Part shown: piece after piece, positions 11,895 to 57,200 of the stretch
Position numbering within the stretch: position 1 is the stretch's first letter
Layout of the letters: each line of letters opens with the position of its first letter
Origin: Candidatus Poribacteria bacterium
Lineage (GTDB): Bacteria > Poribacteria > WGA-4E > JAJDTR01
DNA length: 64,000 nucleotides
NCBI GenBank assembly: GCA_028820655.1
Contig: JAPPIK010000014.1
Coordinates: 186,001 to 250,000, forward strand
Direction of reading: 5' to 3'
Program-made: the position numbers and the translations under genes
Notes under the pieces: model-generated
Told to the model about the DNA's origin: nothing
What the model saw: the letters and a program-made list of their open reading frames with translations, nothing else
Database searches by the model: none

Positions 11895-12878
11895 GTGGAT
11901 AAAATCAGCCAATTCTTGAGAAGATGCCAATTTCTACTGCCACTGTCGTTAATGGTTGGTTCGGTCAGTATAGCGCAGGGATTCGAACCCAAAATCGTCT
12001 TTGCATCGAACCGCGACGGCGATTGGGACATCTATTCCATGGACGCGAATGGAGATCATCTTGCCCAACTCACCAACCACCCGGCATCTGATTGGTTACC
12101 CGCTTGTTCGCCGGATGGAAGGAGGATTACGTTCATATCAGATCGTGACATTGATGACCTGTATGTGATGGACAGCGATGGCACTAACGTGATCAGGCTC
12201 ACCCATGACAATTTTCCTGAAGGCCGCCCTAGTTGGTCGGCGCATGGAACGACGTTTGCCTTTGCATCGCTCCGTTTTGCCGTTGGCAACTGGGAAATCT
12301 ACGCGATGGACGCCGATGGACAGAACCTGAAGAATTTGACAAGAGACAAGATGTGGGATATCCGGCCGAGTTGGTCGCCGGACGGAAGCAAGATTGCGTT
12401 TGTCTCCATACGTGATGGCGGCTTCAATACGCCCTGGCACATTTTCGTGATGAATGCCGATGGAACGGAAAGGCGCAATCTCACTGTCGACACGGTTCTA
12501 AGGCACAGTTCCAATCCTAGTTGGTCGCCGGATGGACGCAAGATTGCTTTCAACTCGCGGCTTAACTTCAGGGGTAATGACATTTTCGTGATCACCGCTG
12601 AAGGAGAAGAGTTAGAACGGCTTACGAACCGGGAGGGTGCCAATATTCAACCAATCTATTCGCCGGACGGGACAAAAATCGCTTTTGTGTCAACGCGTAA
12701 TGGAGGCTATAACATATATTTGATGGACACCAACGGGATGAACGTTGTCAGACTCACGAAAACTCCTCCCGGTATCGAAAACCTAAATCCTTCCTGGCCG
12801 CACGGCGCATTGGCAGTCAATCCAAACGGAAAGTTACCGATTTCTTGGGGCGTTCTCAAACGCACCGGGAAGCCGTGA
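11895..12878 (+). CDS. Secreted TolB-like beta-propeller with C-terminal WGxLK tag
   Basis: A protein of 327 residues. The N-terminus has a signal peptide (basic R-R, hydrophobic L-L-P-L-S-L-M-V-G-S-V, cleavage near A-Q-G). About six TolB/PD40 blades follow, each with a P-x-W-S-P-D-G-x-K-I-A-F core and a D-I/Y-V-M-x-x-D-G turn. The last 11-15 residues leave the propeller pattern and form G-K-L-P-I-S-W-G-V-L-K plus a short basic end, the tag shared with 12 other proteins in the window. The start is a GTG with GGGAGA about 9 bases upstream; an overlapping ATG at 11888 opens only four codons. A periplasmic or surface binding role is likely; the ligand is unknown. Confidence 0.85.
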   Translation: MDKISQFLRRCQFLLPLSLMVGSVSIAQGFEPKIVFASNRDGDWDIYSMDANGDHLAQLTNHPASDWLPACSPDGRRITFISDRDIDDLYVMDSDGTNVIRLTHDNFPEGRPSWSAHGTTFAFASLRFAVGNWEIYAMDADGQNLKNLTRDKMWDIRPSWSPDGSKIAFVSIRDGGFNTPWHIFVMNADGTERRNLTVDTVLRHSSNPSWSPDGRKIAFNSRLNFRGNDIFVITAEGEELERLTNREGANIQPIYSPDGTKIAFVSTRNGGYNIYLMDTNGMNVVRLTKTPPGIENLNPSWPHGALAVNPNGKLPISWGVLKRTGKP

Positions 12879-13037: not shown

Positions 13038-13778
13038 ATGCGATTCAGGCGCACAGTTGTGTCGTTTTTCGGGTTAACCGCGATGCTGGTAAGTGCGGAA
13101 CTGTGGTTAATAGGAGGACTCGCCGCGGAAAGGTCACGGATTGTTTTTTCAAACCTGGTATTTGACAACTTTGAAATCTATGTAATGGATGCCGATGGAG
13201 GAAACCGGGGAAACCTGTCGAACCATCCAGTGGACGAGATGGATCCGGATTGGTCGCCTGACGGGACGAAGATTGCCTTCGGGTCAAGGCAGGTTAGAGA
13301 AGACATATCGAATCACTCTGACATATTCGTAATGAAGGCCGATGGCACCGATCGAATCAACCTCACTCGAAATTCTCACGCGTTCAATAACGATCCCAGT
13401 TGGTCGCCGGACGGAAACAAAATTGCTTACGCAGCATTTTCCAACGTCGATCGTGTGGGCCGAGGGACTACCCACATTGACATATTCGTGATGAATGCAG
13501 ACGGGACGCAACCCAGAAGATTAACCGAGGATGCACCGCTCAACATTCAACCCAGTTGGTCGTCAGATGGCAAAAAAATTGCGTTCTCGCGAGCACACGA
13601 GGACGATCCCATTTACTGCGACATCTATACTATGAATGTGGATGGAACCAACCTTGTAAACCTCACCCAAACCCCTCTTGTGGGCGAATGGACCCCTTCT
13701 TGGAAACCCTCGCCATTTTCGGTGTCATCACGAGGCAAGTTGTCTGTCGTATGGGGAGCGGTAAAACAGAAACGTTAG
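13038..13778 (+). CDS. Secreted TolB-like beta-propeller with C-terminal WGxVK tag
   Basis: A protein of 246 residues behind an AAGGAG site. Residues 1-31 form a signal peptide ending near G-L-A-A-E. Four to five PD40 blades follow, with the same W-S-P-D-G and V-M-N-A-D-G signatures as its upstream neighbour but fewer blades. After the final S-W-K-P the sequence passes through a serine-rich linker to G-K-L-S-V-V-W-G-A-V-K, the tag. It probably arose by duplication with blade loss from the 11895 gene, from which it is separated by 159 bases. Confidence 0.85.
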   Translation: MRFRRTVVSFFGLTAMLVSAELWLIGGLAAERSRIVFSNLVFDNFEIYVMDADGGNRGNLSNHPVDEMDPDWSPDGTKIAFGSRQVREDISNHSDIFVMKADGTDRINLTRNSHAFNNDPSWSPDGNKIAYAAFSNVDRVGRGTTHIDIFVMNADGTQPRRLTEDAPLNIQPSWSSDGKKIAFSRAHEDDPIYCDIYTMNVDGTNLVNLTQTPLVGEWTPSWKPSPFSVSSRGKLSVVWGAVKQKR

Positions 13779-16729: not shown

Positions 16730-16795
16730 AAGCATTGGTTAAGACGACAGATTACAATCGATTCTAACTTTCCATGTCGGTCAAACCCTCGATTC

Positions 16796-17617
16796 TTAGC
16801 TTACAACGTCTCGAGCAAGATCGGGGTAGATTTGGTCGTGAAGCTCCATTGGTTGGAAGAGATGAGCCCTCCGGTTCTCGTCAGCCGTATCTATCATGGG
16901 GGCATGGTACATTCCTGCGCCGGTCTTGTATTTATAGCCGCCGGGGGCGTGGATGCGCACGTATTCATGCACACGTTTCAAGTCCTCCGAGTTCTTGGCG
17001 TGGCGTGTACAGTTCATGGTGAACATGCGGCGGCGATTTCCGCCGCCAAATGAGGCGTGGTACAAGTCGTGATTAAAAATCACGACATCTCCGGGGTTCG
17101 TCTCGACGGCAATGCTGCCGGGAAACTCCGATGGCGGAACGCCAAACAGCTCCATGGAATTGTTCACATCGATTTTTTCCACACGCACGAAATGGTCGGG
17201 TCGATGAGACCCCGGAATGAACCGCAGCGCACCGGTGTCACGAGTAAGCGGGTCTAGATAAAATGCCGTCTTGGTAGCGAATAGCTGACCCCAACCGCCA
17301 TCCGGGTGCCAACCCGTATCGCCGCTATAGTAATTTCCATCGCCGCTGCAGTAGTTGAAATCCTCTCCGAGAATGCCTCCGATGAGACCAAGTATTTTCG
17401 GATGATCCAGAAGGCGGCACATCTCCGGGTGGCGCTCTATCGGTCCCAGAAACATTGTACGAGTCGAACCGTCATGGTTCTCCCCGCCGCCGCAATTTTG
17501 AATTGACCATTCAAATACGTCGATGATTTTATCCGTTTCATACGCTGAAAACAGTTGTGGAATCATCAGATAACCGAAGGTATCGAAAAAGTCTAACTGT
17601 TCTTGAGTCAGTTTCAT
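16796..17617 (-). CDS. Phytanoyl-CoA dioxygenase (PhyH) family oxygenase
   Basis: A protein of 273 residues on the minus strand. The ATG at 17617 has AAGGAGAC upstream and gives M-K-L-T-Q-E-Q-L-D-F-F-D-T-F-G-Y; an open frame continues upstream but is not family-like. H104-P-D106 and distal H187 form the iron site and R195 is the likely 2-oxoglutarate contact. G-A-L-R-F-I-P-G-S-H-R is the conserved core strand. The gene diverges from a GH36 glycosidase at 17868 with about 250 bases between the starts, so the two may share a control region. The substrate is unknown. Confidence 0.87.
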   Translation of the reverse strand: MKLTQEQLDFFDTFGYLMIPQLFSAYETDKIIDVFEWSIQNCGGGENHDGSTRTMFLGPIERHPEMCRLLDHPKILGLIGGILGEDFNYCSGDGNYYSGDTGWHPDGGWGQLFATKTAFYLDPLTRDTGALRFIPGSHRPDHFVRVEKIDVNNSMELFGVPPSEFPGSIAVETNPGDVVIFNHDLYHASFGGGNRRRMFTMNCTRHAKNSEDLKRVHEYVRIHAPGGYKYKTGAGMYHAPMIDTADENRRAHLFQPMELHDQIYPDLARDVVS

Positions 17618-17867
17618 TTGTGTTGTCTCCTTAAAAAATCGGCAGTGACGATGCCTCCTAGATTCGCTGCTTGCGAACTGCCAATTGTATTCGGGCTGGT
17701 TATTCGGCGTTAAACTAAGGAGAAGTGACACATCGTGCCACTCGCTTAATATTAGGGATAATTCCATCTAAACATGTGCAGCTTTCATTATAATGCAGGC
17801 GGATTTGAATTTCAACGATTTATAGTTGGGAAGTCCGCCCTTTCTTAGACGTTGGGAGATTGATGTT

Positions 17868-20234: not shown

Positions 20235-20379
20235 ACAGAAGACTGTCGTTACACACAGGAATGTGTATATGGTTAGTTACAATGACTACAGAGGCGTGAT
20301 CCGGTGATCGCCTTTGATGAGACAGACGCATATGTAAAATAGCTAATTCAATCCACAATCATTTGAAATGGAGGGTAAA

Positions 20380-21183
20380 ATGAAGACGACTGTTCAGAAC
20401 GGAAAAGCTGTGATCTTCGCGAGCGCCATTTTCGTGGGAATGATGCTGGCGAGCGCAGGAGTCGCCGAGTTTGCTGCGGAGGATGTTATCGCCATGTGGC
20501 TGTTGGATGATGGCAACGGGGAATCCGCGATGGACGCCTCCGGAAATGGCAACATCGGGCAACTCGTAGGGAATCCGCAATGGGTTGACGGAAAGTTCGG
20601 AGGCGCCTTGGAATTCGACGGCGATGACCGCGTAGACTGCGGCGACATCGACGGGGTAGACGGATTCACGGGCCTAACGGCTTTGGCTTGGTGCAGATGG
20701 GACGGCGGCGATGGAGGGCTTACGGCACCTGCACGGGTGGTAAGCAAACAGGACCCAAACAAAGGGGATAGGGGACCATTCTCCCTGGGATCGGGTTGGA
20801 ATGCCCACAAGCTAACGTTGTGGATTCACTTCGGTAATTGGGCGGGTGTTCACAGCGCCACGGACATCGATGATGGCGAGTGGCACCATGTGGCAGGCAC
20901 TTACGACGGCAATAGTCTGAGAGTATACGTCGACGGGGTGGAAGAAGCTGAGAGCAACATCGGTAAGGTCACCGGCGGATCTACTCCCGAACATGTCGCC
21001 ATCGGATCAGACGGATTCGGCAGGGAGTTCTGGAAGGGGATCATCGACGAGGTGGCTCTCTTCAATATTGCCCTTGACGAGGACGACATCTCAGGAATCA
21101 TGGACAATGGACTTTCGCCGTTGTCGGCAGTATCGGAAATAGGAAAATTGGCGACAACCTGGGGTAGATTGAAGGGGCGGTAA
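20380..21183 (+). CDS. Secreted LamG/concanavalin-like protein with C-terminal WGxLK tag
   Basis: A protein of 267 residues. The signal peptide spans residues 1 to about 30 (M-K-T-T-V-Q start, hydrophobic A-S-A-I-F-V-G-M-M-L-A). A single LamG jelly-roll domain follows: A-M-W-L-L-D-D, D-A-S-G-N-G-N, W-V-D-G-K-F-G-G-A-L-E-F-D-G-D-D, then W-H-H-V-A-G-T-Y-D-G and a C-terminal I-D-E-V-A-L-F-N strand. Such domains bind sugars or proteins. A linker S-A-V-S-E-I leads to G-K-L-A-T-T-W-G-R-L-K at the extreme end. The ATG at 20380 was chosen for its GGAGGG site. It is a solitary copy, diverged from the nine tandem LamG proteins at 35-44 kb. Confidence 0.85.
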   Translation: MKTTVQNGKAVIFASAIFVGMMLASAGVAEFAAEDVIAMWLLDDGNGESAMDASGNGNIGQLVGNPQWVDGKFGGALEFDGDDRVDCGDIDGVDGFTGLTALAWCRWDGGDGGLTAPARVVSKQDPNKGDRGPFSLGSGWNAHKLTLWIHFGNWAGVHSATDIDDGEWHHVAGTYDGNSLRVYVDGVEEAESNIGKVTGGSTPEHVAIGSDGFGREFWKGIIDEVALFNIALDEDDISGIMDNGLSPLSAVSEIGKLATTWGRLKGR

Positions 21184-21916: not shown

Positions 21917-22936
21917 ATGAAACCACGCATGCGTCTGCTAAAGTGTCTCGCTATCTTAGGGAGTATGAGTATTTCTTCAACGGTTTGGGCGGCGCCCAAA
22001 GGAGATCTGTGGGTGAGCAAACATACCCCAATGCCAAGCAAAAGAGTAGGATTTTCCACGAGCGCGGCGAACGGAAAGATTTACGCTATCGGCGGTACGG
22101 ATTGGGACGATGAGCCGCGGCGTGGAGTAGTCCTTCGTACTGTTGAAGAATATGATCCCTTAACTAATCAATGGAAGCGGCGTGAGGGCATGCGATCCGG
22201 GAGAAGCTTTCTCGCCGCAACCGCCGCGAACGGGAGGATTTACGCTACCGGCGGCAGTGTTCAACTGTTTTGGGACAGGAAGCACGTGGAAGAATATAAT
22301 CCTGCAACCGACACCTGGGAGAGGAAAGCGGATATGCTTGCGGCGCGGTCTGAACACTTTGCAAACACCGTACATGGGAGGATTTACGTGATAGGGGAGG
22401 CAGCCGATGGGGCGGTCGAAGAATACGATCCGGCCGCGGATCGATGGGAAGTAAAATCAGCCCTCCCAGAGCGCAGAGGCTCATTTGCCACAAGTGTTGT
22501 AGATGGCAAAATCTATGTAATCGGAGGCGCGAGGTGGAATCCCATGAGAATCCTTGCGACAGTTGAAGTATATGATCCCGCGGCAGACACGTGGGAAACG
22601 AGAGCAGATATGCCAACGCCGAGATTTAATCTGTTTGCAAATGCCGTCAATGGGATTATTTACGCGATCGGCGGGTTTTCCGATGCAGGTCGAGCATTAC
22701 CAACCGTGGAAGCGTACAACCCTGAAACGGACACATGGGAAACGATGGCGGAAATGCCAGAAGGGCGGTCTGGATTCTCCTCCAGTGTAGTCAACGAGAG
22801 AATATATGTTTTTGCAGGTTTCAATGAGTTCAGGCGAACCGTGCTAATCTACACGCCACCGTCTAGACCTCCTCGAAGCGTCGATGCGCTGGGAAAGGCG
22901 GCAACGACTTGGGGACGCGTAAAGACCGGACGATAG
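21917..22936 (+). CDS. Secreted Kelch beta-propeller with C-terminal WGxVK tag
   Basis: A protein of 339 residues. The signal peptide ends near T-V-W-A-A. Six Kelch repeats follow, each with an I-Y-A-I-G-G (or variant) strand and a V-E-E-Y-D/N-P-x-T-D-x-W-E strand about 20-25 residues later. Bacterial Kelch propellers are ligand- or protein-binding, occasionally sialate mutarotase-like. A short proline- and arginine-rich linker (P-P-S-R-P-P-R-S) then leads to G-K-A-A-T-T-W-G-R-V-K. The ATG has AAAGGAG upstream. It is unrelated in fold to the TolB-like and LamG proteins that carry the same tag. Confidence 0.88.
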   Translation: MKPRMRLLKCLAILGSMSISSTVWAAPKGDLWVSKHTPMPSKRVGFSTSAANGKIYAIGGTDWDDEPRRGVVLRTVEEYDPLTNQWKRREGMRSGRSFLAATAANGRIYATGGSVQLFWDRKHVEEYNPATDTWERKADMLAARSEHFANTVHGRIYVIGEAADGAVEEYDPAADRWEVKSALPERRGSFATSVVDGKIYVIGGARWNPMRILATVEVYDPAADTWETRADMPTPRFNLFANAVNGIIYAIGGFSDAGRALPTVEAYNPETDTWETMAEMPEGRSGFSSSVVNERIYVFAGFNEFRRTVLIYTPPSRPPRSVDALGKAATTWGRVKTGR

Positions 22937-35370: not shown

Positions 35371-35399
35371 TTGACACATGGTGCAAATTTCCTTATAAT
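35371..35399 (+). promoter_or_regulatory. Consensus sigma70 promoter upstream of the LamG array
   Basis: TTGACA (35371-35376), a 17-base spacer and TATAAT (35394-35399) match the consensus in all 12 positions. The A-rich stretch just upstream (35361-35367) could act as an UP element. The first LamG start is at 35654, so the leader would be about 250 bases long. It contains CCCGG-rich imperfect repeats (35518-35556) and no frame of note. Confidence 0.75.
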
Positions 35400-35653: not shown

Positions 35654-36490
35654 ATGAAAATGGGTTTTGTAAGATCAAGCCTATTATGCCTAGGCGTGCT
35701 CGTCGCGTGTCTAGCATTCACTAACGTTAGCGACGCCGTTAAAATGGACGAGGTCGTAGCCATCTGGACTCTCGACGAAAATGGCGGTGACAAAGTCATG
35801 GATAGTTCCGGCAACGACAACAACGGTGCGTTCGCAGCCGGCGAACCCCAGTGGGTCGAGGGCAAGTTTGGCAGCGCATTGCGGTTTGACGGCGCGCACA
35901 ACGGCGGCGCTTTTGTCGAGATGGGTGCTCCCGTTGTGGTAGACACCGTGGATTTCACGATGGGATGCTACGTGAATCCGGGTGACACCCAGAATACTTG
36001 GACGAATATCCTCTCTAGTCACCAAGAACCGCCGCGCCGGGGAATTTCCTTTGAGATGATTGACACGAATCTCAACTTGTTCGGCATCGCCATTGGCGAC
36101 GGCCCGAACTGGGCAGGGAATGGAAACGTACAACTGGATACCGACGTCTGGAACCACATGGCTTTCGTTCGTACCGGCAACATTGGCACATGGTACTGGA
36201 ATGGCGTGCCCGATGAATTCGAGATGCCGGGCGGCAGATTTGAATTGGCCTCCGCCGATCCCGTTGTCGCTGCCACCTCCAACTTCCGCATCGGAAACTG
36301 GGTGCTCGGCGGCCGTGAGTTCAACGGAGTCGTTGACGACGCGTTCCTTTTTGAGAGAGCGCTAAGCGCCGATGAAATCAAGGACATCTATGACAACGGT
36401 ATACAGGCCGCAACTTCAGGCACTGGGACCGCTGTGGATCCGAGAGACAAAGCTTCAGTTACTTGGGGTCAGATTAAAGCCCGGAAGTAA
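35654..36490 (+). CDS. Secreted LamG protein A of the tandem array, WGxIK-tagged
   Basis: A protein of 278 residues behind AAAGGAG. The signal peptide ends near D-A-V-K. The LamG domain has A-I-W-T-L-D-E, D-S-S-G-N-D-N-N-G-A-F, W-V-E-G-K-F-G-S-A-L-R-F-D, the subfamily mark T-N-I-L-S-S-H-Q-E-P-P-R-R-G, then W-N-H-M-A-F-V-R and F-N-G-V-V-D-D-A-F-L-F-E-R-A-L-S. The end is a G-T-G-T-A-V-D-P-R linker and D-K-A-S-V-T-W-G-Q-I-K-A-R-K. The last about 60 residues match protein C, making A and C one type. A sugar- or surface-binding role is likely. Confidence 0.85.
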   Translation: MKMGFVRSSLLCLGVLVACLAFTNVSDAVKMDEVVAIWTLDENGGDKVMDSSGNDNNGAFAAGEPQWVEGKFGSALRFDGAHNGGAFVEMGAPVVVDTVDFTMGCYVNPGDTQNTWTNILSSHQEPPRRGISFEMIDTNLNLFGIAIGDGPNWAGNGNVQLDTDVWNHMAFVRTGNIGTWYWNGVPDEFEMPGGRFELASADPVVAATSNFRIGNWVLGGREFNGVVDDAFLFERALSADEIKDIYDNGIQAATSGTGTAVDPRDKASVTWGQIKARK

Positions 36491-36530
36491 CGGAGGCAGA
36501 CTACTGTCTTGGTCGATCAACACCATTCGT

Positions 36531-36555
36531 GAGGGCACGTGATTTCTGTGCCCTC
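36531..36555 (+). promoter_or_regulatory. Conserved intercistronic hairpin, LamG A-B
   Basis: GAGGGCAC and GTGCCCTC form a perfect 8-bp stem around a 9-base loop, followed by ACATCTCTTTCAGG that includes the ribosome site of the next gene. The same position between genes C and D holds a hairpin with changed but still pairing bases. Confidence 0.55.
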
Positions 36556-36578
36556 ACATCTCTTTCAGGAATTTGTAC

Positions 36579-37373
36579 ATGAAATTGAGGATCACACATC
36601 TTTACCTTTTCCTGGTCGTCTTCGGTTGCTTCGCTTGGACAAACGTGACTGAGGCGCAATTGAATCTGGATGGCGCTTTGGGCATTTGGCTGCTTGACGA
36701 TGATGCCAGGAAAATCAAAGACATTTCGGATAGCGGCAATCACGGGGCTATCACGAATGGAAATCCCAAATGGGTGGACGGCAAGTTCGGCTTGGGGCTG
36801 GAGTTTGATGCGAGAAGTTGGGTAACGATGGACACCCCTGTCGTGACCTTAAAAGACATGGTGGATTTCAGTATGGGTTGTTGGGCGAATCCCGGGGATC
36901 AGCAGAAGACGTGGACAAATATCCTGTCCAGCCATCAGGAACCTCCGCGCCGAGGCATCTCGTTTGAAATGCTGAACAACGACCTCAATGTGTTTGGAAT
37001 TGCGATTGGCGACGGACCAAACTGGGCTGGGGCGGGAAATGTGCAATTAAAAACCGGCGTGTGGAATCATCTGGCTTTCGTGCGCGACGGCGGTAGCGGC
37101 AAGTGGTTTTTAAACGGAAAGCTTCAATCGAAGAATAATCTGGCATCTCGCGATCCCGTTGTTCCTGCTACCTCCAGATTCCGAATCGGCAACTGGGTTT
37201 TGGGCGGTCGAGAGTTTAATGGCAAAGTTGACGAATCGTTCGTATTCAGCAGGGCGCTTGAAGACGACGAAGTTGAATCCATCTTCAAGAGAGGTTTCGA
37301 AAGCGCTCATGCCGTCACTCCGAACGACAAAGCCGCAATGACCTGGGGAAAGATTAAATCCTTGCACCAGTGA
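36579..37373 (+). CDS. Secreted LamG protein B, WGxIK-tagged
   Basis: A protein of 264 residues. The signal peptide ends near T-E-A-Q-L. It shares the T-N-I-L-S-S-H-Q-E-P-P-R-R-G-I-S-F-E-M signature with A, C, D and E, and N-W-V-L-G-G-R-E-F-N-G-K-V-D-E-S-F with D. The tail is D-K-A-A-M-T-W-G-K-I-K-S-L-H-Q, the same ending type as D. The ATG at 36579 was chosen with CAGGA upstream; a TTG lies two codons earlier. The gap from A (88 bases) is homologous to the C-D gap, so A-B and C-D look like a duplicated gene pair. Confidence 0.84.
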   Translation: MKLRITHLYLFLVVFGCFAWTNVTEAQLNLDGALGIWLLDDDARKIKDISDSGNHGAITNGNPKWVDGKFGLGLEFDARSWVTMDTPVVTLKDMVDFSMGCWANPGDQQKTWTNILSSHQEPPRRGISFEMLNNDLNVFGIAIGDGPNWAGAGNVQLKTGVWNHLAFVRDGGSGKWFLNGKLQSKNNLASRDPVVPATSRFRIGNWVLGGREFNGKVDESFVFSRALEDDEVESIFKRGFESAHAVTPNDKAAMTWGKIKSLHQ

Positions 37374-37613
37374 GTCGACACACTATTTTGCTTCTGTTTT
37401 GAGAATTTCTCGGCGTAACGAGAACTAACTAGCCTAAGCATTAAATCAACAGTATTAGAGTTGTCTAGGGAAAATTTACGTGTTGCTGTTGTGTCAAGGT
37501 TTAGATGGAGTTTAGTGAATTCAGGAAAATTGCATACTCCTGACGCTAAGGATTATTTCCATCTGTGACGACACGAGCTATTGGCGCTGTTATATCTCGG
37601 AAAGGAGCATCAA

Positions 37614-38432
37614 ATGATAAATCTTAAGGATTTCAGACTTTTTCACGCCTTTCTCTTGTTAAGTTGCGGCGCTCTTCTCTGCACTAACCTTGCCGAGGCT
37701 CAGTTGGATTCTGATGGCGCCCTCGCAATTTGGCTGCTTGACGAAGGTAAAGGGGTTGATGTCGAGGATTCCTCGGGCAACGACAACGGCGGGGCATTTG
37801 AGCAGGGCCAACCCGAATGGGTGGATGGTAAGTTTGGAAAAGCGCTGGAGTTTGACCAGCAGAGCTGGGTGGCGATGAACAACCCTGTTGTGACCGTGGA
37901 AGGCATGGTTGATTTCAGCATCGGATGCTGGGCGAATCCGGGGGACAGCCAAAAGACGTGGACGAATATTCTATCCAGCCACCAAGAACCGCCGCGCCGA
38001 GGTGTATCGTTTGAAATGTTTGAAGACCAAACCAACTTTTTTGGGATTGCATTCGGCGACGGGGAAAACTGGATAGGCGGAGGATGGGCGCAATTAAAAG
38101 CCGGTGTATGGAACCATATGGCGTTCGTTCGCACCGGAAATATGGGAACTTGGTACCTCGACGGAGAACAGTCGATGGAAGTCAGATTGCTGTCGGATAA
38201 TCCGGTTTTTCCCGCGACATCAAACTTCCGAATCGGAAACTTCGTGCTCGGCGGCCGTGAATACAACGGAGCCGTTGACGACGCTTTCCTTTTTGAGAGA
38301 GCCTTGAGCGCCGATGAAATCAAGGACATCGTTGACAACGGTATTGCCGCCGCACTTGCCGACACTGGAACTGCCGTGGACCCAAGAGACAAAGCATCGG
38401 TAACTTGGGGTCAGATTAAAACCCGGAAGTAA
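37614..38432 (+). CDS. Secreted LamG protein C, WGxIK-tagged
   Basis: A protein of 272 residues with AAAGGAG 6 bases before the ATG. The signal peptide ends L-A-E-A-Q. Domain hallmarks are A-I-W-L-L-D-E-G-K-G, S-S-G-N-D-N-G-G-A-F, W-V-D-G-K-F-G-K-A-L-E-F-D and the S-S-H-Q-E-P-P-R-R-G signature. The middle (F-E-D-Q-T-N-F-F-G-I-A-F-G-D-G) matches protein E, while the C-terminal third and tail (D-K-A-S-V-T-W-G-Q-I-K-T-R-K) match protein A. That mosaic suggests recombination or gene conversion within the array. Confidence 0.85.
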   Translation: MINLKDFRLFHAFLLLSCGALLCTNLAEAQLDSDGALAIWLLDEGKGVDVEDSSGNDNGGAFEQGQPEWVDGKFGKALEFDQQSWVAMNNPVVTVEGMVDFSIGCWANPGDSQKTWTNILSSHQEPPRRGVSFEMFEDQTNFFGIAFGDGENWIGGGWAQLKAGVWNHMAFVRTGNMGTWYLDGEQSMEVRLLSDNPVFPATSNFRIGNFVLGGREYNGAVDDAFLFERALSADEIKDIVDNGIAAALADTGTAVDPRDKASVTWGQIKTRK

Positions 38433-38471
38433 CAGAGGCAGATTGCTTCTTGGCTGATCAACACCATTCGC

Positions 38472-38496
38472 GAGGGCGCGTGATGCCAGTGTCCTC
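38472..38496 (+). promoter_or_regulatory. Conserved intercistronic hairpin, LamG C-D
   Basis: GAGGGCGC pairs with GTGTCCTC over 8 positions, two of them G-U. Compared with 36531-36555 the sequence has changed in both arms but pairing is kept, which favours a functional RNA structure. Confidence 0.5.
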
Positions 38497-38569
38497 ACAT
38501 CTCTTTCAGGTATTTGTATATGATTCTGTGACCTATTCGCGTTGTTACATCTTTGGAAAGGAGCCTCAC

Positions 38570-39376
38570 ATGATTTGGCAAAAAAATCTCAGACTTTTTC
38601 AATTCTTTCTCATTTTGAGTTGCGGTGCTTTTCTCTGTACGAATGTTGCTGAGGCCCAGTTGGATTTTGACGGCGCTCTGGGGATTTGGCTGCTAGACGA
38701 AGGAAAAGGCGGTGATATTGAGGACATCTCCGGCAACGATAATGGCGGTGCATTTGCACACGGCAAACCGAAGTGGGTTGCTGGCAAGTTCGGAAAAGCC
38801 TTGGAATTCGAACAGGATAGTTGGGTAGCGATGAACAATCCAGTCGTTACAGTAGATAAGATGGTTGATTTTAGCATGGGGTGCTGGGCGAATCCCGAGA
38901 ATAGCCAAAAGACGTGGACGAACATTCTTTCAAGCCATCAGGAGCCGCCGCGCCGGGGTATTTCCTTCGAAATGCTCAATAACGAAACAAACCTGTTTGG
39001 AATTGCTATTGGTGACGGGCCGAATTGGTTCGGTGCGGGAAACGTCCTCTTGAAAACCGGCGTGTGGAATCACATGGCGTTTGTTCGCACGGGAAAAACA
39101 GGACAATGGTTTTTGAACGGGAAAAATCAAGGTAAATACACTTTGGGTTCGGACAAACCTGTGGTCGCTGCCACATCAAACTTCCGAATCGGCAACTGGG
39201 TCTTGGGCGGTCGGGAGTTCAACGGCAAGGTTGACGAATCATTCTTGTTCAGTAGAGCGTTGGATGCCGAGGAAATTGAAGCAATTTTTGAGAAGGGACT
39301 CGAAAATGCGCAAGCTGTCACTTCGAAAGGCAAATTCACTACAACTTGGGGAAAGATTAAGTCTTGGAATCAATAG
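38570..39376 (+). CDS. Secreted LamG protein D, WGxIK-tagged
   Basis: A protein of 268 residues with AAAGGAG upstream of the ATG. The signal peptide ends V-A-E-A-Q. It carries the S-S-H-Q-E-P-P-R-R-G-I-S-F-E-M signature and a C-terminal third very like B (N-W-V-L-G-G-R-E-F-N-G-K-V-D-E-S-F-L-F-S-R-A-L). The tail is G-K-F-T-T-T-W-G-K-I-K-S-W-N-Q. Its stop is not followed by a normal gap: gene E begins inside its 3' end in another frame. Confidence 0.84.
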   Translation: MIWQKNLRLFQFFLILSCGAFLCTNVAEAQLDFDGALGIWLLDEGKGGDIEDISGNDNGGAFAHGKPKWVAGKFGKALEFEQDSWVAMNNPVVTVDKMVDFSMGCWANPENSQKTWTNILSSHQEPPRRGISFEMLNNETNLFGIAIGDGPNWFGAGNVLLKTGVWNHMAFVRTGKTGQWFLNGKNQGKYTLGSDKPVVAATSNFRIGNWVLGGREFNGKVDESFLFSRALDAEEIEAIFEKGLENAQAVTSKGKFTTTWGKIKSWNQ

Positions 39377-40172
39377 CGTAAATCTCAGTCTTTTCCGTAT
39401 CATTCTGCTCCTTGATTGCTGCGTTCTGATTTGGGCAGGTTCCGCATCGGCACAGTTAAACTATGATGGCGCCGTGGCGATTTGGCTGCTTGACGAAGGT
39501 AGAGGAGTTGATGTCGAGGATTTCTCGGGTAACGACAACGGCGGGGCATTTGGGCAGGGACATCCCAAATGGGTGGATGGTAAGTTTGGAAAAGCGCTGG
39601 AGTTTGACCAGCAGAGTTGGGTGACGATGAACAACCCTGTCGTAACCGCGAAAGACATGGTTGATTTCAGCATGGGATGCTGGGCGAATCCTGAGGACAG
39701 TCAAAAGACTTGGACCAATATTCTATCCAGCCACCAAGAACCGCCGCGCCGAGGTATGTCGTTTGAAATGTTTGAAGACCAAACCAACTTTTATGGGATT
39801 GCATTCGGCGACGGGGACAATTGGGTGGGCGGAGGATGGGCGCAATTAAAAGCCGGTGTATGGAATCATATGGCATTCGTTCGCAAAGGAAAAATCGGAA
39901 CTTGGTACCTCAACGGAGAACAGTCGATGGAAGTCAAATTGTCATCGGATAAGCCGGTCGCTGCCGCCACTTCAAACTTCCGAATCGGAAACTTCGTGCT
40001 CGGTACGAGGGAGTTTAACGGTAAGGTTGACGAGTCGTTTATTTTTAGCAGGGCGCTGGAGGCCGAGGAAATCGGATCCATTTTCAAGAGAGGCTTCGAA
40101 AATGCCCAAGCTGTGGGTTCCCAGGGCAAGGCGGCTACCACTTGGGGAAAGGTCAAATCTTGGCATCGGTAA
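39306..40172 (+). CDS. Secreted LamG protein E, WGxVK-tagged, start lost or displaced
   Basis: The mature part is a normal array member (A-I-W-L-L-D-E-G-R-G, S-S-H-Q-E-P-P-R-R-G-M-S-F-E-M, tail G-K-A-A-T-T-W-G-K-V-K-S-W-H-R). The signal peptide region (S-L-F-R-I-I-L-L-L-D-C-C-V-L-I-W-A-G-S-A-S-A) aligns with those of C and D, but the start codon that should precede it is missing: the homology begins right at the stop of gene D. The nearest in-frame ATG is 39306, inside gene D in another frame, which would add about 25 residues before the signal. A deletion probably fused D to E. E may depend on coupling to D, or be poorly translated. Confidence 0.75.
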   Translation: MRKLSLRKANSLQLGERLSLGINSVNLSLFRIILLLDCCVLIWAGSASAQLNYDGAVAIWLLDEGRGVDVEDFSGNDNGGAFGQGHPKWVDGKFGKALEFDQQSWVTMNNPVVTAKDMVDFSMGCWANPEDSQKTWTNILSSHQEPPRRGMSFEMFEDQTNFYGIAFGDGDNWVGGGWAQLKAGVWNHMAFVRKGKIGTWYLNGEQSMEVKLSSDKPVAAATSNFRIGNFVLGTREFNGKVDESFIFSRALEAEEIGSIFKRGFENAQAVGSQGKAATTWGKVKSWHR

Positions 40173-40271
40173 TCTGCTGCCACGAAGAGTTCCATTCTGA
40201 AGATTTTCATTCCTGTCCTATATTCCTAGTGGGACGATGTTAGGTCCCCCTATTACATTGCATCAATTGAA

Positions 40272-40304
40272 AAGGAGGTGTCTATCGGGATGATTCAGGT
40301 ATAA
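40272..40304 (+). other. Strong ribosome site followed by a four-codon frame
   Basis: AAGGAGGTG (40272-40280) lies 9 bases before ATG ATT CAG GTA TAA (40290-40304). It is about 115 bases upstream of LamG F, which itself has no clear ribosome site. It may be a remnant of a lost gene start or a tiny leader. A TATAAT at 40300-40305 has no good -35. Confidence 0.3.
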
Positions 40305-40420
40305 TGTCTGTTTCGTTCAACACCAAATCGGTGTGTGCCTACCTTACGGAGGAAGCCTGCATTCCATCGCATGCTTCCATTGAACTACCCGCCTATTTCT
40401 GAATCTTCCCGGGAAAACTC

Positions 40421-41257
40421 ATGAAGATAATTATACCTAAAGTAGCGGCCTTCGTTATCAGTTTAGCATTCGTAGGTCTGTTATTCACCGGTGCGGCGCA
40501 TTCGCAGGGCTTGATGAGCAAAGCCGTGGCAATCTGGCTCTTTGATGAAGACGGGGGCAAGAAAGTTAAAGATTTTGCCCGCAATAATCACGATGGCGAG
40601 TTCGAGGGCAAACCCGAATGGGTGCCGGGTAAATTTGGGACGGCATTGAAATTTATCGGTGCGGACGAACTTGCTTGGGTAGATATTGAACGTCCGGTGG
40701 TCGTAGACACCGTTGATTTTAGCATTGGGTGCTGGTTGCTTCCGGGCTCTCCGCAGCACTGGCACCAAAATGTGCTCTCCGGCCGCGATGCCGCCGAATC
40801 GGACAAAGGCATAGCTCTTGCGCAGTTCGAAAACGCCGTTAACAGCTATCGAATCGTAATCGGCGGAGTGTTCAATTGGCAGGGATTGGGCAATCCGAGA
40901 AATACTGCCAGGTTGGCACAGGATGAATGGAGTCATCTGGTTTTCGTGCGCGAAGGAAGAGGAGGCACATGGTATAAAAACGGCGAACCTGATCGACCGA
41001 AGCGCGGCAATTTTTTCATAGATGTAGGATCCGTGAAACCAGTGAATCCGCCTATAGAAAATTTTCGCATCGGCGCCGCTTCGTTTAATGATGAACTGCG
41101 CTATCGGGGCGTTATCGACGAGGTGTTTATATTTGAAAGAGCGTTGAGCCAAGACGAGGTGCAGCGGATCATGAACGACGGATTTGAGGAAGCGCAGAAG
41201 GTCGACGCCAAGGGCAAAGCCGCGACTATGTGGGGAACCATCAAGTCGTCAGAGTAG
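40421..41257 (+). CDS. Secreted LamG protein F, second subfamily, WGxIK-tagged
   Basis: A protein of 278 residues. The signal peptide ends A-A-H-S-Q. It belongs to a different subfamily from A-E: A-I-W-L-F-D-E-D-G-G-K-K-V, N-H-D-G-E-F, G-K-P-E-W-V-P-G-K-F-G-T-A-L, then Y-R-I-V-I-G-G-V-F-N-W-Q-G-L-G-N-P-R and W-Y-K-N-G-E-P-D-R-P-K-R-G, shared with G, H and I. The tail is G-K-A-A-T-M-W-G-T-I-K-S-S-E. Its P-Q-H-W-H-Q segment matches I, while G and H share P-Q-E-R-F-Q. No convincing ribosome site is present. Confidence 0.84.
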   Translation: MKIIIPKVAAFVISLAFVGLLFTGAAHSQGLMSKAVAIWLFDEDGGKKVKDFARNNHDGEFEGKPEWVPGKFGTALKFIGADELAWVDIERPVVVDTVDFSIGCWLLPGSPQHWHQNVLSGRDAAESDKGIALAQFENAVNSYRIVIGGVFNWQGLGNPRNTARLAQDEWSHLVFVREGRGGTWYKNGEPDRPKRGNFFIDVGSVKPVNPPIENFRIGAASFNDELRYRGVIDEVFIFERALSQDEVQRIMNDGFEEAQKVDAKGKAATMWGTIKSSE

Positions 41258-41363
41258 CCAACTGTGCTCCTGCTCTAACCTAACTGTCAAAGGCTCGGGT
41301 GTACCGATATCTAAGGTAGCTAATACCGGTGAATGCGGATGAGCGTCATGCACGCGGGCTATC

Positions 41364-42242
41364 ATGAGAATCCCGAATCCAACATGCATTTTCCCGCCAA
41401 AAACTTCGGGAGTAATTGTTCCTAGAGTAGCGCTACTCACCATATTCTCGTTATTCTTGTGCCTTACTGTTTCACATGCCGCTCATGCGCAGAACATCTT
41501 GCGGGATGCGGTGGCAATCTGGCTTTTTGATGAAGGCGGAGGCGAGAAAGTTTCCGATTTTACGCGAAACGACCACCATGGCGACTTTAATGGAAGCCCC
41601 GAATGGGTGCCCGGTAAATTTGGGACGGCATTGCGGTTCCTTGGTGCGGACGAAACCACGTGGGTAGACGTCAATCGTCCCGTCAAGGTGAATTCGGTTG
41701 ATTTGAGTATCGGTTGTTGGATGCTTCCCAACAACCCGCAGGAACGATTCCAAAATGCGCTTTCCGGTCGGGACGGTTGGTTATCGGAAGCGGGTATCGC
41801 CCTTGAGCAGTACGAAAACCTGTCGAACAATTACCGCATTGTTATTGGCGGAGTGTTCGGCGGAGTAAACTTGGGTAATCCCAGACACGCCGTGAAACTC
41901 ATTAACGATGAATGGACGCATCTAGCTTTCGTTCGTGAAGGTAGGAACGGGATATGGTATAAAAACGGTGTGCCGGATCGCCCGAAACGCGGCAACTATC
42001 ACGTGGACACCGGTTCCATTAGACCCGCGAGATCCTCCGATACGAATTTCCGCATCGGTGCCGCGTCATGGAGGGACTGGTTTCGCTACCGAGGCGTTCT
42101 TGATGAGGTGTTCATATATGAACGAGCGCTGAGTCGGGAGGAAGTTCAACGAGTCATGAATGTGGGATTTCAGGGTGCTCTAAACGCCGACGCCAAAGGC
42201 AGAGTCGCGACTGTGTGGGGTGGGATAAAGTCGCCGCGCTAA
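41364..42242 (+). CDS. Secreted LamG protein G, second subfamily, WGxIK-tagged
   Basis: A protein of 292 residues; the n-region before the signal core is longer than in its neighbours (about 20 residues, M-R-I-P-N-P-T-C). The signal ends A-A-H-A-Q. The domain follows the F-I pattern with N-L-G-N-P-R-H-A-V-K and W-Y-K-N-G-V-P-D-R-P-K-R-G. The tail is G-R-V-A-T-V-W-G-G-I-K-S-P-R; it is the only tag with arginine instead of lysine at the second position. No clear ribosome site is present. Confidence 0.83.
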   Translation: MRIPNPTCIFPPKTSGVIVPRVALLTIFSLFLCLTVSHAAHAQNILRDAVAIWLFDEGGGEKVSDFTRNDHHGDFNGSPEWVPGKFGTALRFLGADETTWVDVNRPVKVNSVDLSIGCWMLPNNPQERFQNALSGRDGWLSEAGIALEQYENLSNNYRIVIGGVFGGVNLGNPRHAVKLINDEWTHLAFVREGRNGIWYKNGVPDRPKRGNYHVDTGSIRPARSSDTNFRIGAASWRDWFRYRGVLDEVFIYERALSREEVQRVMNVGFQGALNADAKGRVATVWGGIKSPR

Positions 42243-42389
42243 CCAAAGGTTCTCCCACCCGAGTTTCCGCATAAAGACGATAAACTCATGCCTGCACCCA
42301 TTGCCGCCCGGGGTTATGGGGTCGGCTTAATTCATGTGGGCTTTCACAATAGTTCCCGCTAAATGGTGGATAAAATCGACAAAAAACCT

Positions 42390-43229
42390 ATGAAGACAGT
42401 AATCGCTAAAGTAACGCTTTTTGTTATCAGTTGTCTTGTTCTAAGTTTTACCTTAACGCATGTTGCACATTCACAGAATCTCTTGAAAGATGCCGTGGCA
42501 ATCTGGTTGTTTGATGAAGACGGCGGTAAGAAAGTTAACGATTTTGCCCGCAACAAGCACGATGGCGAGTTTTCTGGTAAACCCGAGTGGGTTCCTGGAA
42601 AATTTGGGACAGCTTTGCAATTCCTCGGTGCAGACGAGCACTCGTGGATAGACATTGAACGTCCGGTCAAGGTGGACTCGGTTGATTTGAGCATCGGATG
42701 TTGGTTGCTACCAAGCAACCCGCAGGAGCGATTCCAAAACGTGCTTTCCGGTCGAGACGGCGAGAAATCGGATGCCGGGATTGCCCTGCTACAGTACGAA
42801 AACACCACCAATAACTATCGAATTGCGCTTGGAGGTGTGTTCAACTGGCAGGGATTGGGAAATCCCAGGCACACCGCCAAGTTAACTAAAGATGTGTGGA
42901 CGCATCTTGTTTTCGTGCGCGAAGGTAAAAACGGGATATGGTATAAGGACGGGGTGCCTGATCGCCCGAAACGCGGCGGATTTCACATTAACGTAGGGTC
43001 CATTCAACCCGTAAAACCAGCCACCAAAAATTTCCGCATTGGAGCCGCGGCATGGGAAGAAGGTGTGAGACGCTATCGAGGCGTTCTTGACGAGGCGTTT
43101 GTATATGAGCGGGCGCTGAGTCAAGACGAAGTTCAACGAATCATGAACGAGGGATTTCAGGAAGCGCAAAACGTGCAATCCAATGGCAAAACCGCTGTTG
43201 TTTGGGGACGGATCAAATCGCTGCGTTAG
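42390..43229 (+). CDS. Secreted LamG protein H, second subfamily, WGxIK-tagged
   Basis: A protein of 279 residues; the ATG at 42390 aligns with the start of F (M-K-x-x-I-x-K-V), and an upstream in-frame ATG at 42363 is less likely. The signal ends V-A-H-S-Q. It is closest to G through P-Q-E-R-F-Q-N and to F through F-N-W-Q-G-L-G-N-P-R. The tail is G-K-T-A-V-V-W-G-R-I-K-S-L-R. A GAAACC hairpin repeat follows 16 bases after the stop. Confidence 0.84.
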   Translation: MKTVIAKVTLFVISCLVLSFTLTHVAHSQNLLKDAVAIWLFDEDGGKKVNDFARNKHDGEFSGKPEWVPGKFGTALQFLGADEHSWIDIERPVKVDSVDLSIGCWLLPSNPQERFQNVLSGRDGEKSDAGIALLQYENTTNNYRIALGGVFNWQGLGNPRHTAKLTKDVWTHLVFVREGKNGIWYKDGVPDRPKRGGFHINVGSIQPVKPATKNFRIGAAAWEEGVRRYRGVLDEAFVYERALSQDEVQRIMNEGFQEAQNVQSNGKTAVVWGRIKSLR

Positions 43230-43245
43230 ATGGTAGTTTCCGTTC

Positions 43246-43277
43246 GAAACCGAGTTTTTTCTCTAAAACTCGGTTTC
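43246..43277. repeat. GAAACC hairpin repeat, copy 2
   Basis: GAAACCGAGTTTT (43246-43258) and AAAACTCGGTTTC (43265-43277) form a perfect 13-bp stem with a 6-base loop. Relative to 21317-21348 the arms differ at matching positions (A/T against G/C), so pairing is kept. A dispersed-repeat fragment follows at about 43300-43330. Confidence 0.7.
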
Positions 43278-43473
43278 TTCTCGCACAATTCTGTAGGATC
43301 AAGCGAGTGGATAGCGAGCGCGATAGACCCCACCTGCGTACCGTTCGAATCGTACTTCTCAAACAGCCTCGTGGATGCGACCACCCGTCACCATCCTTTT
43401 CGGTCGGTCGATCCATCATATCGCTTAATTCCTGAGACCTCCCTTCAATTTGCCCGAACGGAGATACGCAAAC

Positions 43474-44313
43474 ATGGCCCTTCAATCAGGAACGAAAGTA
43501 ACGCTTTTCTGTATCTGTTGCGTGTTCGTTTGCTTAATATTCACAAGCACCGCTCAATCACAACCATTTCTGAGGAAGGTTGTGGCAATCTGGCTTTTTG
43601 ATGAAGGCACGGGCAAGAAAGTAAACGATTTTGCCCGCAATGGCCACGACGGCGAGTTCAGCGGAAAACCCGAATGGGTACCCGGCAAATTTGGAACCGG
43701 TTTGGAATTCGCCGGTGCGGACGACAACCAGTGGGTAGACATTGAGCGTCCGGTCGTCGTAGATACCGTCGATTTTAGCATAGGATGCTGGTTGCTCCCG
43801 GGTGCCCCGCAGCACTGGCACCAACATCCACTTTCCGGCCGGCCTGCCGACAATTCGGACGAGGGAATCGCCATCGCACAGTTCGAAAACGCCGTCAACA
43901 GCTATCGAATTTCTATAGGGGGAGTATTCAATTGGGAGGGGTTGGGCAATCCGAGAAACACTGCCAAGCTAAAGCAGGATGAATGGACTCATCTGGTTTT
44001 TGTGCGTAAGGGAAAAGGAGGAACATGGTACAAGAACGGCGAGCCCGATCGTCCTAAGCGCGGCAATCATTACATTAATATTGGAAATGAAAATCCCGTA
44101 AATGCTACCGAACAGAATTTCCGCATCGGTGCCGCGTCATTTGATGATTTGCGGCGATACCGAGGCGTTATTGACGAGGCATTCGTATTTGAAAGAGCGC
44201 TGAGTCAAGCGGAAGTTCAACGGATTATGAACGAGGGACTCCAGGAAGCGCAAAGCGTCGGCTCCAGAGGCAAAGCCTCAACCGTATGGGGCAGGATCAA
44301 ATCTCCGGACTAA
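43474..44313 (+). CDS. Secreted LamG protein I, last of the array, WGxIK-tagged
   Basis: A protein of 279 residues with GGAG 10 bases before the ATG at 43474. The signal ends T-A-Q-S-Q. The domain matches F most closely (P-V-V-V-D-T-V-D-F-S-I-G-C-W-L-L-P-G, P-Q-H-W-H-Q, Y-R-I-S-I-G-G-V-F-N-W-E-G-L-G-N-P-R). The tail is G-K-A-S-T-V-W-G-R-I-K-S-P-D. A strong terminator lies 74 bases downstream, closing the array. Confidence 0.85.
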   Translation: MALQSGTKVTLFCICCVFVCLIFTSTAQSQPFLRKVVAIWLFDEGTGKKVNDFARNGHDGEFSGKPEWVPGKFGTGLEFAGADDNQWVDIERPVVVDTVDFSIGCWLLPGAPQHWHQHPLSGRPADNSDEGIAIAQFENAVNSYRISIGGVFNWEGLGNPRNTAKLKQDEWTHLVFVRKGKGGTWYKNGEPDRPKRGNHYINIGNENPVNATEQNFRIGAASFDDLRRYRGVIDEAFVFERALSQAEVQRIMNEGLQEAQSVGSRGKASTVWGRIKSPD

Positions 44314-44386
44314 TATGAGTTTATTGCTTCAAGATCTGTTGCAAGGGCCCAGAGTCTAAAGCCCAACCGAGCCTAATGGTTCAACT

Positions 44387-44426
44387 AACCCCGTCTCAAC
44401 ATTTTTGAGGTGGGGTTATTTTGTTT
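44387..44426 (+). terminator. Rho-independent terminator after the LamG array
   Basis: AACCCCGTCTCAA (44387-44399) pairs over all 13 positions (two G-U) with TTGAGGTGGGGTT (44405-44417), with a 5-base loop, followed by ATTTTGTTT. This is the clearest terminator in the window. Confidence 0.85.
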
Positions 44427-54226: not shown

Positions 54227-57200
54227 ATGTTCAGAAAATCAACAATCTCTGTAGTAATGATTTATTGCTTATTCGCGCAGTTCACCTTTGTGTCTACCGG
54301 CATTACCGCCGACGGACAGCAAACACTAGGACTCTCCGAGACGGCGGTAAAGATCCGCGACGAGGTTTCTGCGGGCAGGATGCGGAAAGACATCGCTAGG
54401 CTTTCCAGTCTCACCACTCGTGTTACCGGCTATGACGAGGCAGCGAACGGGTCCAAATATGTTTTTGACCGGTTTGTTGAAATTGGCTTGCAAAATGTTG
54501 AGGCACGCGGATTTGAGATTACCGTGCCGATTGACGCAGAGGATGGGAAACTTGAGGTCATCTCGCCGGATGGAACCGTTTCCAAGAGCGTCAAAATATC
54601 ACCCTGTTGGCCCAATCTCGTGCGCACCTCCCTCCTGCCGAACGGCATCAAGCATCTTGTCGATTCCGATGAATCTCTTGAAGAGATTGCCCAATCCTAC
54701 GAGGTTGACGTTCAATCTATACTCACCAATTCCAACAATCAATATCTAGTGGATCAGTCGGCTGACGGCCGAGACAATGACGGCGATGGCGAAATTGACG
54801 AAGCAGGCGAGTTTGCGTTAATTGAGGGGAATACGGTTTTTGTGCCTACCGGCGGGTTAACGGCGCCACTGGTTTATGCAGGCGATGCCGAACTCGTCGA
54901 TTTCAACGGGTTGGATGTTGGCGGATTTTGGTACGAGGTGCAACCCAGCGACACAATCGAACACGTTTCCCGCCGATTCCGCGTCAGCAAAGGCAGCATC
55001 ACCGATGATGTTCTGAACGGACATCTCCAGAAGACGGAGGACGGAATCGACAATGATGAAGACGCCGAAGTCGACGAATATGGAGAGATTCCGCCTCTCG
55101 AGGAGATTGCGCATTGGCGTGACGACGGAATTGACAATGACGGCGACGGCTACGCGGATGAGATTCCCGGAGATGATAGAGACGGCATAGACAATAATAG
55201 AGACGGGCAAGTCGATGAGCCGGGCGAGTTTGTGGGCGCAGGCGAATCCAGCATATTTATTCCCCAAGGCAGCATTGTCCTCGTCGACTTCAATTCTGGC
55301 ACTCGATGGATAAACGCCGCCATGCTAGGTGCCAAGGCGGCAATCTTCATCGAACCGGAGACTACCATCCGTGGTGAAGCGGAGAACAAATTCTTGACGG
55401 TTCCCGCTAACATTCCCCGATTTTGGATCTCCAAGAAGGATGCAGAGGATCTCCGGTCGATGATGTCTCAAGGAGAGATTTCCGCGCGTTTAACGTGTAC
55501 CATGACGTGGGAACGACGTACCGGGCAGAATATTCGCGGCTTTCTTGAAGGTAACGATCCCGTTTTAAAGGACGAACTTGTCGTTCTCACCGCCTACTAT
55601 GATTCGATGTCTATCGTGCCGGCAATGGCTCCCGGTGCCGATCCTACGGGCGGCGTAGCCGCACTGCTTGAATTGGCACGTATATTCAAGCAAGAAGAAT
55701 TCCGCCCGGGACGCTCCATATTGTTTGTCGCAACCGATGCACACTTTCAAGGATTGGCGGGGATGCGGGCATTTATGGAGGGAATTGGCCAAGATACCGT
55801 TGGTGGAACTACGGATTCACCGGGAACGCCTACGATGCACGGATTACGGCGCGGGCTGTCGGCAGACATCTTTGAATTCCAGGAGCTGGGGAGGAAGTTG
55901 TTGTTGTCGATTGACCGGAGCGTGTTAGTCGACTTACCGCCAGATTTCTATTACGAAGTTCACAAAATTGAATCGGATCTTGATTCGCTCGCTACGACGT
56001 TGTCGGCACTGTCGGGCACACAGGGCAAGGTTGGCTCGCTTCGCAATGCGCAACGAGACTTCAAGGAGAAACAGAAAAAGAAAATTGAAAGCACGAAGAA
56101 ACGGGAGAAACAGGGATTTACCTCGGAAGAAAAATCTCGGCTTGAGACAAATCTTGCTTCGTTCAAGAAGGATTCCCTGCAAACGGCTCACTTTCTGCGC
56201 GACATTGTAGTTCGCATAGATCGACTTCGTTCGCAAGCGCTTGAGGAATCTCGGAAAGCGCAACGGGAATTGCTCGAGAATATCGCGTTACCTATTGCAC
56301 ATCTCGACATCTGGGCGCTTCAGCAGTTGAGAATCGACCTTGAGGAAAAGCGGATTGCAGACAGTTTTTCGCGTGAGCCTTCCGAATCGTATGCATTGCC
56401 CAAAAGAGTTGGCGACGGGTACGAAATTCCTATCGATGCTGAAGCGAGAGAATCGCACCTCGGGGAGCAAGTCAACATTCTGTCAACGTATCTTGAGGAT
56501 TGGGAATTGCGCGACTCGAGAAAATTTGCGCTCCAATTTACTCAGGAAAAGCTGCTAGACCGCCACTTGGATTTTTACGGTCTGCAGCAAATGAAGGCAT
56601 CGCGGAAGATAGTCAATCAAGCTACCCAACCGTTGGCCGACTACATCGACGTTGAGCGACAGTTGCTTGAACGAGCATTAGCGAAGATTCCGGATAGCGC
56701 CGACGCTGAAAATAAAATTAAAACCGCAATCAAGCAACTTGCTTCCGACCCGTCATTCTACCCACCGTCAATCGTCGCGGAACTCAAACAATATTTGAGC
56801 CAACCAACCGTTGAACGTTTGGATCGCACACAGACCGGCCTACAACAGAAACTGAGGGAAGCCAAAACCACCGACGCACAAGATTCGTCGCATGCGATTT
56901 TTGTCGCGGACTTCGCCAAGGATAAGCAATCTATCTTTGAGACGGCGCTTCGAAATGCACGGTTGGAAAAGAGCCGAATCCAGAATTTGCTTCGGAATCA
57001 CGGTGATCTGGTTCGCGCCTATCTGGCAGAAGAGGAGTTGGTGCTTCGCCACTATTTGTCGAGAGATGAAGTGGAACAAGCGGTCGAAGCACGATCTCAA
57101 ATTTTTGCCCACTTGTCCGAAGAAATGCTCCTTGATTTCGTGCAAAGGAAGGCTGCGAATGACGTCGTTGAGTTGAACAATCTACTGAACCAACTGGATA

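Follow-up and report, generated by a model that had tools for sequence, protein, structure and literature searches.

A tandem array of nine LamG genes in a Poribacteria genome and a short C-terminal tag shared with unrelated exported proteins

Introduction

PEP-CTERM is a domain-independent C-terminal sorting tag that functions within a system needing both an exosortase and a transmembrane helix. The type A tail of the type IX secretion system (T9SS; TIGR04183) is likewise a C-terminal signal on exported proteins, in this case a domain of about 70-90 residues. MYXO-CTERM (PMC11980579) is a short tag distributed phylum-wide on dozens of proteins per genome; it combines a transmembrane helix with an invariant Cys and an Arg-rich tail. 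For Poribacteria, which are uncultured, much of the export is known only from sequence; Kamke et al. 2014 (PMC3909097) report TIGR04183 domains in these bacteria and state that they did not find the genes for the structural part of the system. Here we describe an array of nine LamG genes in a Poribacteria genome. The nearest solved sequences and folds to these LamG domains are carbohydrate-binding domain 4 of the arabinanase AbnA (5hon/5ho0), an appendage of a glycoside hydrolase. We consider it probable that the array is a secreted LamG operon in which five of the genes exchange segments under purifying selection and that the C-terminal tag of its products is a candidate sorting signal for surface display.

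Results and discussion

Organization of the array

Within the window (the whole 64-kb stretch of DNA analysed here, C15:186001-250000 of the source genome), ORF reading delineates nine consecutive open reading frames on the plus strand, at positions 35654-44313: A (35654..36490), B (36579..37373), C (37614..38432), D (38570..39376), E (39306..40172), F (40421..41257), G (41364..42242), H (42390..43229) and I (43474..44313). Profile search matched all nine to Laminin_G_3 (PF13385) with E-values of 1.9e-14 to 4.9e-20 and scores of 54.5-72.6 bits against a cut-off of 27.6. None of the nine frames is interrupted, and every one starts with a hydrophobic leader that qualifies as an N-terminal Sec signal peptide by a simple hydropathy rule. 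The two subfamilies recognized in the initial annotation are also borne out: the sequence SSHQEPPRRG is exact in all five members of A-E, and WYKNGxPDRPKRG in three of the four members of F-I, with H differing by a single N-to-D change (WYKDGVPDRPKRG). At the amino acid level, gene A is 56-64% identical to B-E and 37-40% identical to F-I.

Gene E has no start codon at the expected place; it most likely starts at the ATG at 39306, which lies inside D in the +1 frame and overlaps the tag codons of D. Both in the source genome and in the same-genus relative discussed below, this ATG has AAGGGA in front of it and opens an uninterrupted frame, so that in two genomes the tag codons of D would double as the leader of E (window 39306-39376 and L031:13702-13772). 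On these grounds, we rejected the possibility that E is a silent or broken gene.

A single promoter for the array, as initially proposed, is supported by a sigma-70 site, TTGACA-17-TATAAT (35371..35399, plus strand), that precedes A, matches at 12 of 12 positions and is the only perfect match in the window; the relative has a perfect promoter at the corresponding position, although its spacer has diverged. At the other end, I is followed by a putative intrinsic terminator of 14 pairs (44386..44418, plus strand), with the same hairpin after I in the relative. Taken overall, the scans for promoters and terminators do not exceed the shuffled expectation (6 found vs 8.6, and 10 vs 12.3), so that the claim draws on these two sites being perfect and conserved. 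A further hairpin of 11 pairs, terminator- or attenuator-like, follows A (36529..36557, plus strand) and could attenuate downstream expression; by eye, a resembling stem is present after C and in the relative. Elsewhere in the window, a 2470-aa ORF (54227-61639) combines matches to peptidase M28 and FtsX permease, and two genes on opposite strands (15782-17767) look by eye like members of the phytanoyl-CoA dioxygenase (phyH) family, which PMC3909097 describes as abundant in Poribacteria.

Exchange and selection in the array

A scan of public genomes found one counterpart locus, in a Candidatus Poribacteria MAG of the same genus (L031; contig C20, genome G001), where the flanking UnbV/FG-GAP and TPR genes are syntenic. 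The array of the relative was read from two contigs, which together have at least 11 genes, one of them broken: A', C', B', X', D' and E' (cut by the contig end) on the first contig, and the tail of a gene followed by Z', F', an F-like pseudogene, H' and I' on the second. The pseudogene (L032, between 9007 and 10151, minus strand) occupies the place of G but is a broken F-like copy rather than its orthologue, and an intact orthologue of G was not seen in the relative. The comparison of copy number suggested in the initial annotation thus reveals differences in both number and order, contrary to an unvarying order of nine genes, with the A-E block rearranged and richer in copies and F-I nearly stable.

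Gene-conversion tests on the nine-gene alignment gave significant results for A-E. In a PHI-type test implemented for this analysis with 1000 permutations, p was 0.001 (the attainable minimum) for A-E, 0.005 for F-I and 0.025 for F-I together with the genes of the relative. A GENECONV-like test detected exchange between C and E in the middle (global P 0.009) and between A and C in the tail (global P 0.010); inside F-I of the window it yielded nothing significant (best global P 0.11), and when the genes of the relative were added it paired H with I' of the relative. Segment trees conflict for A-E and retain one topology across three segments for F-I, so that a clean tree, which would have spoken against exchange, is roughly what F-I displays but not what A-E does. 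Gene C is the clearest mosaic: with the C gene of the relative set aside, 90-base windows identify a D-like 5' end, an E-like part (83-93%) at alignment positions 180-720 and an A-like part (79-96%) from 720 onwards, confirming, together with the GENECONV-like test, the originally noticed E-like middle and A-like end. At alignment positions 720-810, C resembles A at 89% but the C of the relative at only 64%, and the latter is 90% like E; this segment is a tract whose breakpoint differs between the two lineages. Taken together, the alignments indicate that the mosaicism in A-E is real.

The signal extends to the non-coding gaps. Those after A and after C are 83.7% alike in the source genome (86% over 85 bases) and 88.2% alike within the relative, vs 65.5-73.6% across genomes, which suggests concerted evolution within each genome. 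The similarity of the A and C tails and of these gaps agrees with the initial annotation of A-B and C-D as a duplicated pair, but B and D do not behave as one: they are 69% identical to each other, whereas B is 82% identical to the B and D 86% identical to the D of the relative. Because B and D are unlike a pair, the shared tail and gap of A and C are better read as conversion, and a clean pair duplication is further weakened by the order A', C', B' in the relative. Of the recombining reservoir that had been envisaged, the recombining array holds up, but nothing points to silent donors. Antigenic variation from silent cassettes would imply truncated donors that lack a start or a promoter, along with one expression site; the array differs from this in consisting of nine open frames with leaders, E having an overlapping start.

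The array proteins are under purifying selection. For A, B, C, D, E, F, H and I compared with their counterparts in the relative, Nei-Gojobori dN/dS ranges from 0.088 to 0.208, the method being rough for the pairs in which dS is near 1; E, for one, has a ratio of 0.165 over 170 codons. The highest pooled pN/pS in any 20-codon window is 0.42 and is located in the signal peptide, although such pairwise ratios leave room for a few selected sites.

It is possible that the exchange is neutral churn of a gene family, in which similar tandem copies recombine and dosage rather than variety is selected. The purifying selection and the concerted evolution of the gaps fit this account, as does the abundance of LamG domains across the phylum (PF13385 is present in 58 of 58 Poribacteria genomes, the source genome included), whereas the persistence of two subfamilies side by side and the conserved order of F-I argue for distinct functions. 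The churn account is compatible with, rather than opposed to, a secreted LamG operon exchanging segments under purifying selection. As a whole, the array belongs to a family present across the phylum that evolves by ordinary tandem duplication and conversion.

A C-terminal tag on unrelated exported folds

The shared tag is more interesting than the array itself and is the part worth following up. It consists of the last ~19 residues, with the pattern AVxPxGKLxTTWGxIK, and, as initially noticed, all nine array genes carry it: each ends in its own copy of a version of AVxPxGKxxTTWGxIK (for gene A, AVDPRDKASVTWGQIKARK, encoded at 36431..36487 on the plus strand). PF13385 has 85 matches at E<=0.001 in the 5.88-Mb source genome, and the tag ends 74 of these ORFs by a relaxed pattern and 57 by a strict one; the remaining 11 LamG matches lack it, some of them being cut, broken or large multidomain proteins. 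Among 600 random LamG pairs, the tag is more alike than the domain in 588, a figure inflated by the pattern used to pick the tags.

The tag ends not only LamG but also TolB-like, Kelch, BNR and cohesin proteins. We collected 157 distinct carriers in the source genome, 66 from the PF13385 list and 91 others, a few of which are weak LamG relatives. V is present in 153 of the 157, P at -8 in 103 and K at -5 in 108; these three are not fully forced by the search pattern, which fixes the W and K of the tag. A sample of 29 non-array carriers includes 12 PD40 propellers, three LamG, three BNR, one Kelch and one cohesin protein as well as several without a match, and in their alignment no column is invariant apart from the V, W and K in the tag, although the folds differ. 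Outside the array, the window itself encodes two tagged TolB-like propellers (11895..12878 and 13038..13778, the latter read from its sequence), a tagged LamG protein (20368..21183) and a tagged Kelch propeller (21917..22936), all on the plus strand. Two other contigs of the source genome, C7 and C8 (L078-L081; about 45 kb each), are rich in tandem tagged TolB-like propeller genes, with 29 tagged ORFs or pieces in the first 40 kb of C8 and, over the same length of C7, 18 tagged ORFs that are not all TolB-like.

A tag profile finds at least 149 places in the source genome at E<=10, compared with one for the reversed profile (one, three and none in the three genomes searched with it); the profile was built from 48 LamG tails of the source genome, so that independent evidence comes only from non-LamG carriers and other genomes. 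The DNA pattern of the tag occurs in 373 places vs 157 when read backwards. Across the phylum, the profile matched in 84 of 84 Poribacteria genomes searched, including the source, with 25 to at least 108 matches each. A leader-like segment is present in 138 of 155 tagged ORFs vs 56 of 136 untagged ones.

If the motif were just the way in which LamG proteins normally end, a structural feature passed on by descent, and the array only a family of duplicated lectins devoid of a sorting signal, its presence on all nine array genes and on most LamG genes of the genome would be accounted for. This interpretation is nevertheless unlikely given that TolB-like, Kelch, BNR and cohesin proteins also end in the motif, with 91 carriers off the LamG list. 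Furthermore, an AlphaFold2 model, which folds as a jelly roll to about residue 242, leaves the tag (residues 252-272) unpacked at pLDDT under 50, a low confidence that may partly reflect lack of data in a shallow alignment of 15 sequences. One short C-terminal motif on unrelated exported folds is what is broadly expected of a sorting tag, and we regard the motif as a candidate sorting signal that would operate without a membrane helix.

T9SS-like proteins in Poribacteria

NCBIfam scans of the nine array proteins (E<=0.1), of 10 other carriers (E<=1) and of 29 carriers (E<=0.01) detected no tail model at the tag; on the array proteins, TIGR04183 was not found and the only match was TafC, far below its cut-off. 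The tag of the array is thus rejected as a classical T9SS tail. TIGR04183 tails number 26-79 per genome in eight Poribacteria genomes (78 in the source genome). The same eight genomes each have one match to SprA_N, in an ORF of 1144-2300 aa and above the cut-off in five of them, along with PorV matches above the cut-off and C25 peptidases in every case. Three SprA-like proteins match TIGR04189 with E-values of 6.3e-42 to 9.1e-54, under the equivalog cut-off of 200 bits, and the SprA-like alignment, searched as a profile against the PDB, had no matches at E<=0.01, so that the SprA-like assignment comes solely from NCBIfam and Pfam profiles. In the source genome, a 2091-aa protein matches PorU (NF033707) with 423 bits against a cut-off of 420 and is directly followed by a PorV-family protein (123 bits vs 90); the SprA-, PorU- and PorV-family proteins of this genome are at C1:23701-30165 (L110:5702-12166), C4:317803-325230 (L154:5804-13231), C4:164791 and C19:23148. 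Poribacteria genomes therefore appear to carry SprA-, PorV- and PorU-like proteins of the kind that the 2014 paper (PMC3909097) reported missing. In the openly accessible literature, no title or abstract among the papers listed by the searches describes a T9SS apparatus in Poribacteria or the tag.

The tag and T9SS-like genes are present together in every Poribacteria genome tried, so co-occurrence cannot link the two. None of 20 TIGR04183 loci read has the tag at the protein end. Six related WD40-type proteins (C22:336000-351500, L155) have a TTWGxIK-like stretch upstream, shortly before the T9SS tail, a hint, and a lead only, that the ends of the tag and of the T9SS tail may be related.

Interpretation and comparison with known systems

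In the explanation that we favor, the array would be an operon encoding nine small LamG (lectin-like jelly-roll) proteins for secretion, in each of which a single LamG domain lies between an N-terminal signal peptide and the ~19-residue tag. The A-E block changes copy number and order, and its genes swap segments through tandem duplication and gene conversion, with each protein remaining under purifying selection. The tag may act at the C-terminus as a sorting signal, taking the protein across the outer membrane or fixing it there; the T9SS-like machinery of the same genomes could serve as export apparatus, and the array would present the cell surface with a family of modules that bind sugars or matrix. 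More tentatively, but as a serious candidate, AVxPxGKLxTTWGxIK might be an undescribed phylum-wide secretion or anchoring signal, a second, short class beside the T9SS tail that is perhaps read by one of several PorV-family shuttles in the genome, with the array being one of many interchangeable cassettes of surface binding modules. Least probable, and quite doubtful, is the surface-antigen-like reservoir under diversifying selection put forward in the initial annotation, in which exchange would be selected for new binding surfaces: the exchange, the rearranged order and the pseudogene of the relative are in its favor, but dN/dS of 0.09-0.21 in eight orthologue pairs, with no window above 0.42, led us to reject such selection.

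A secreted LamG operon with a candidate sorting tag would have several implications. The array clearly exemplifies how a lectin-like family can undergo gene conversion in the absence of diversifying selection. A tag marking well over a hundred exported proteins per genome would make the surface proteome readable directly from genomes and give a handle on testing how Poribacteria bind sponge or particle surfaces, and, along with the SprA-, PorV- and PorU-like genes, it reopens the 2014 question of protein secretion in these bacteria.

Compared with domain 4 of AbnA, the array proteins are single-domain, secreted and tagged. The Poribacteria tag resembles MYXO-CTERM (PMC11980579) in being short, C-terminal, phylum-wide and carried by dozens of proteins per genome but differs in composition: none of the 157 tagged C-termini has a hydrophobic helix, and Cys occurs in the last 25 residues of only three. 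The requirements of the PEP-CTERM/exosortase system are likewise absent, with exosortase (PF09721) in none of eight Poribacteria genomes, and we rejected an exosortase- or MYXO-type tag for these reasons and because no C-terminal helix with a basic tail was found among the 157. With the T9SS type A tail, the tag shares its position at the C-terminus of exported proteins, in a version of ~19 residues rather than a full domain.
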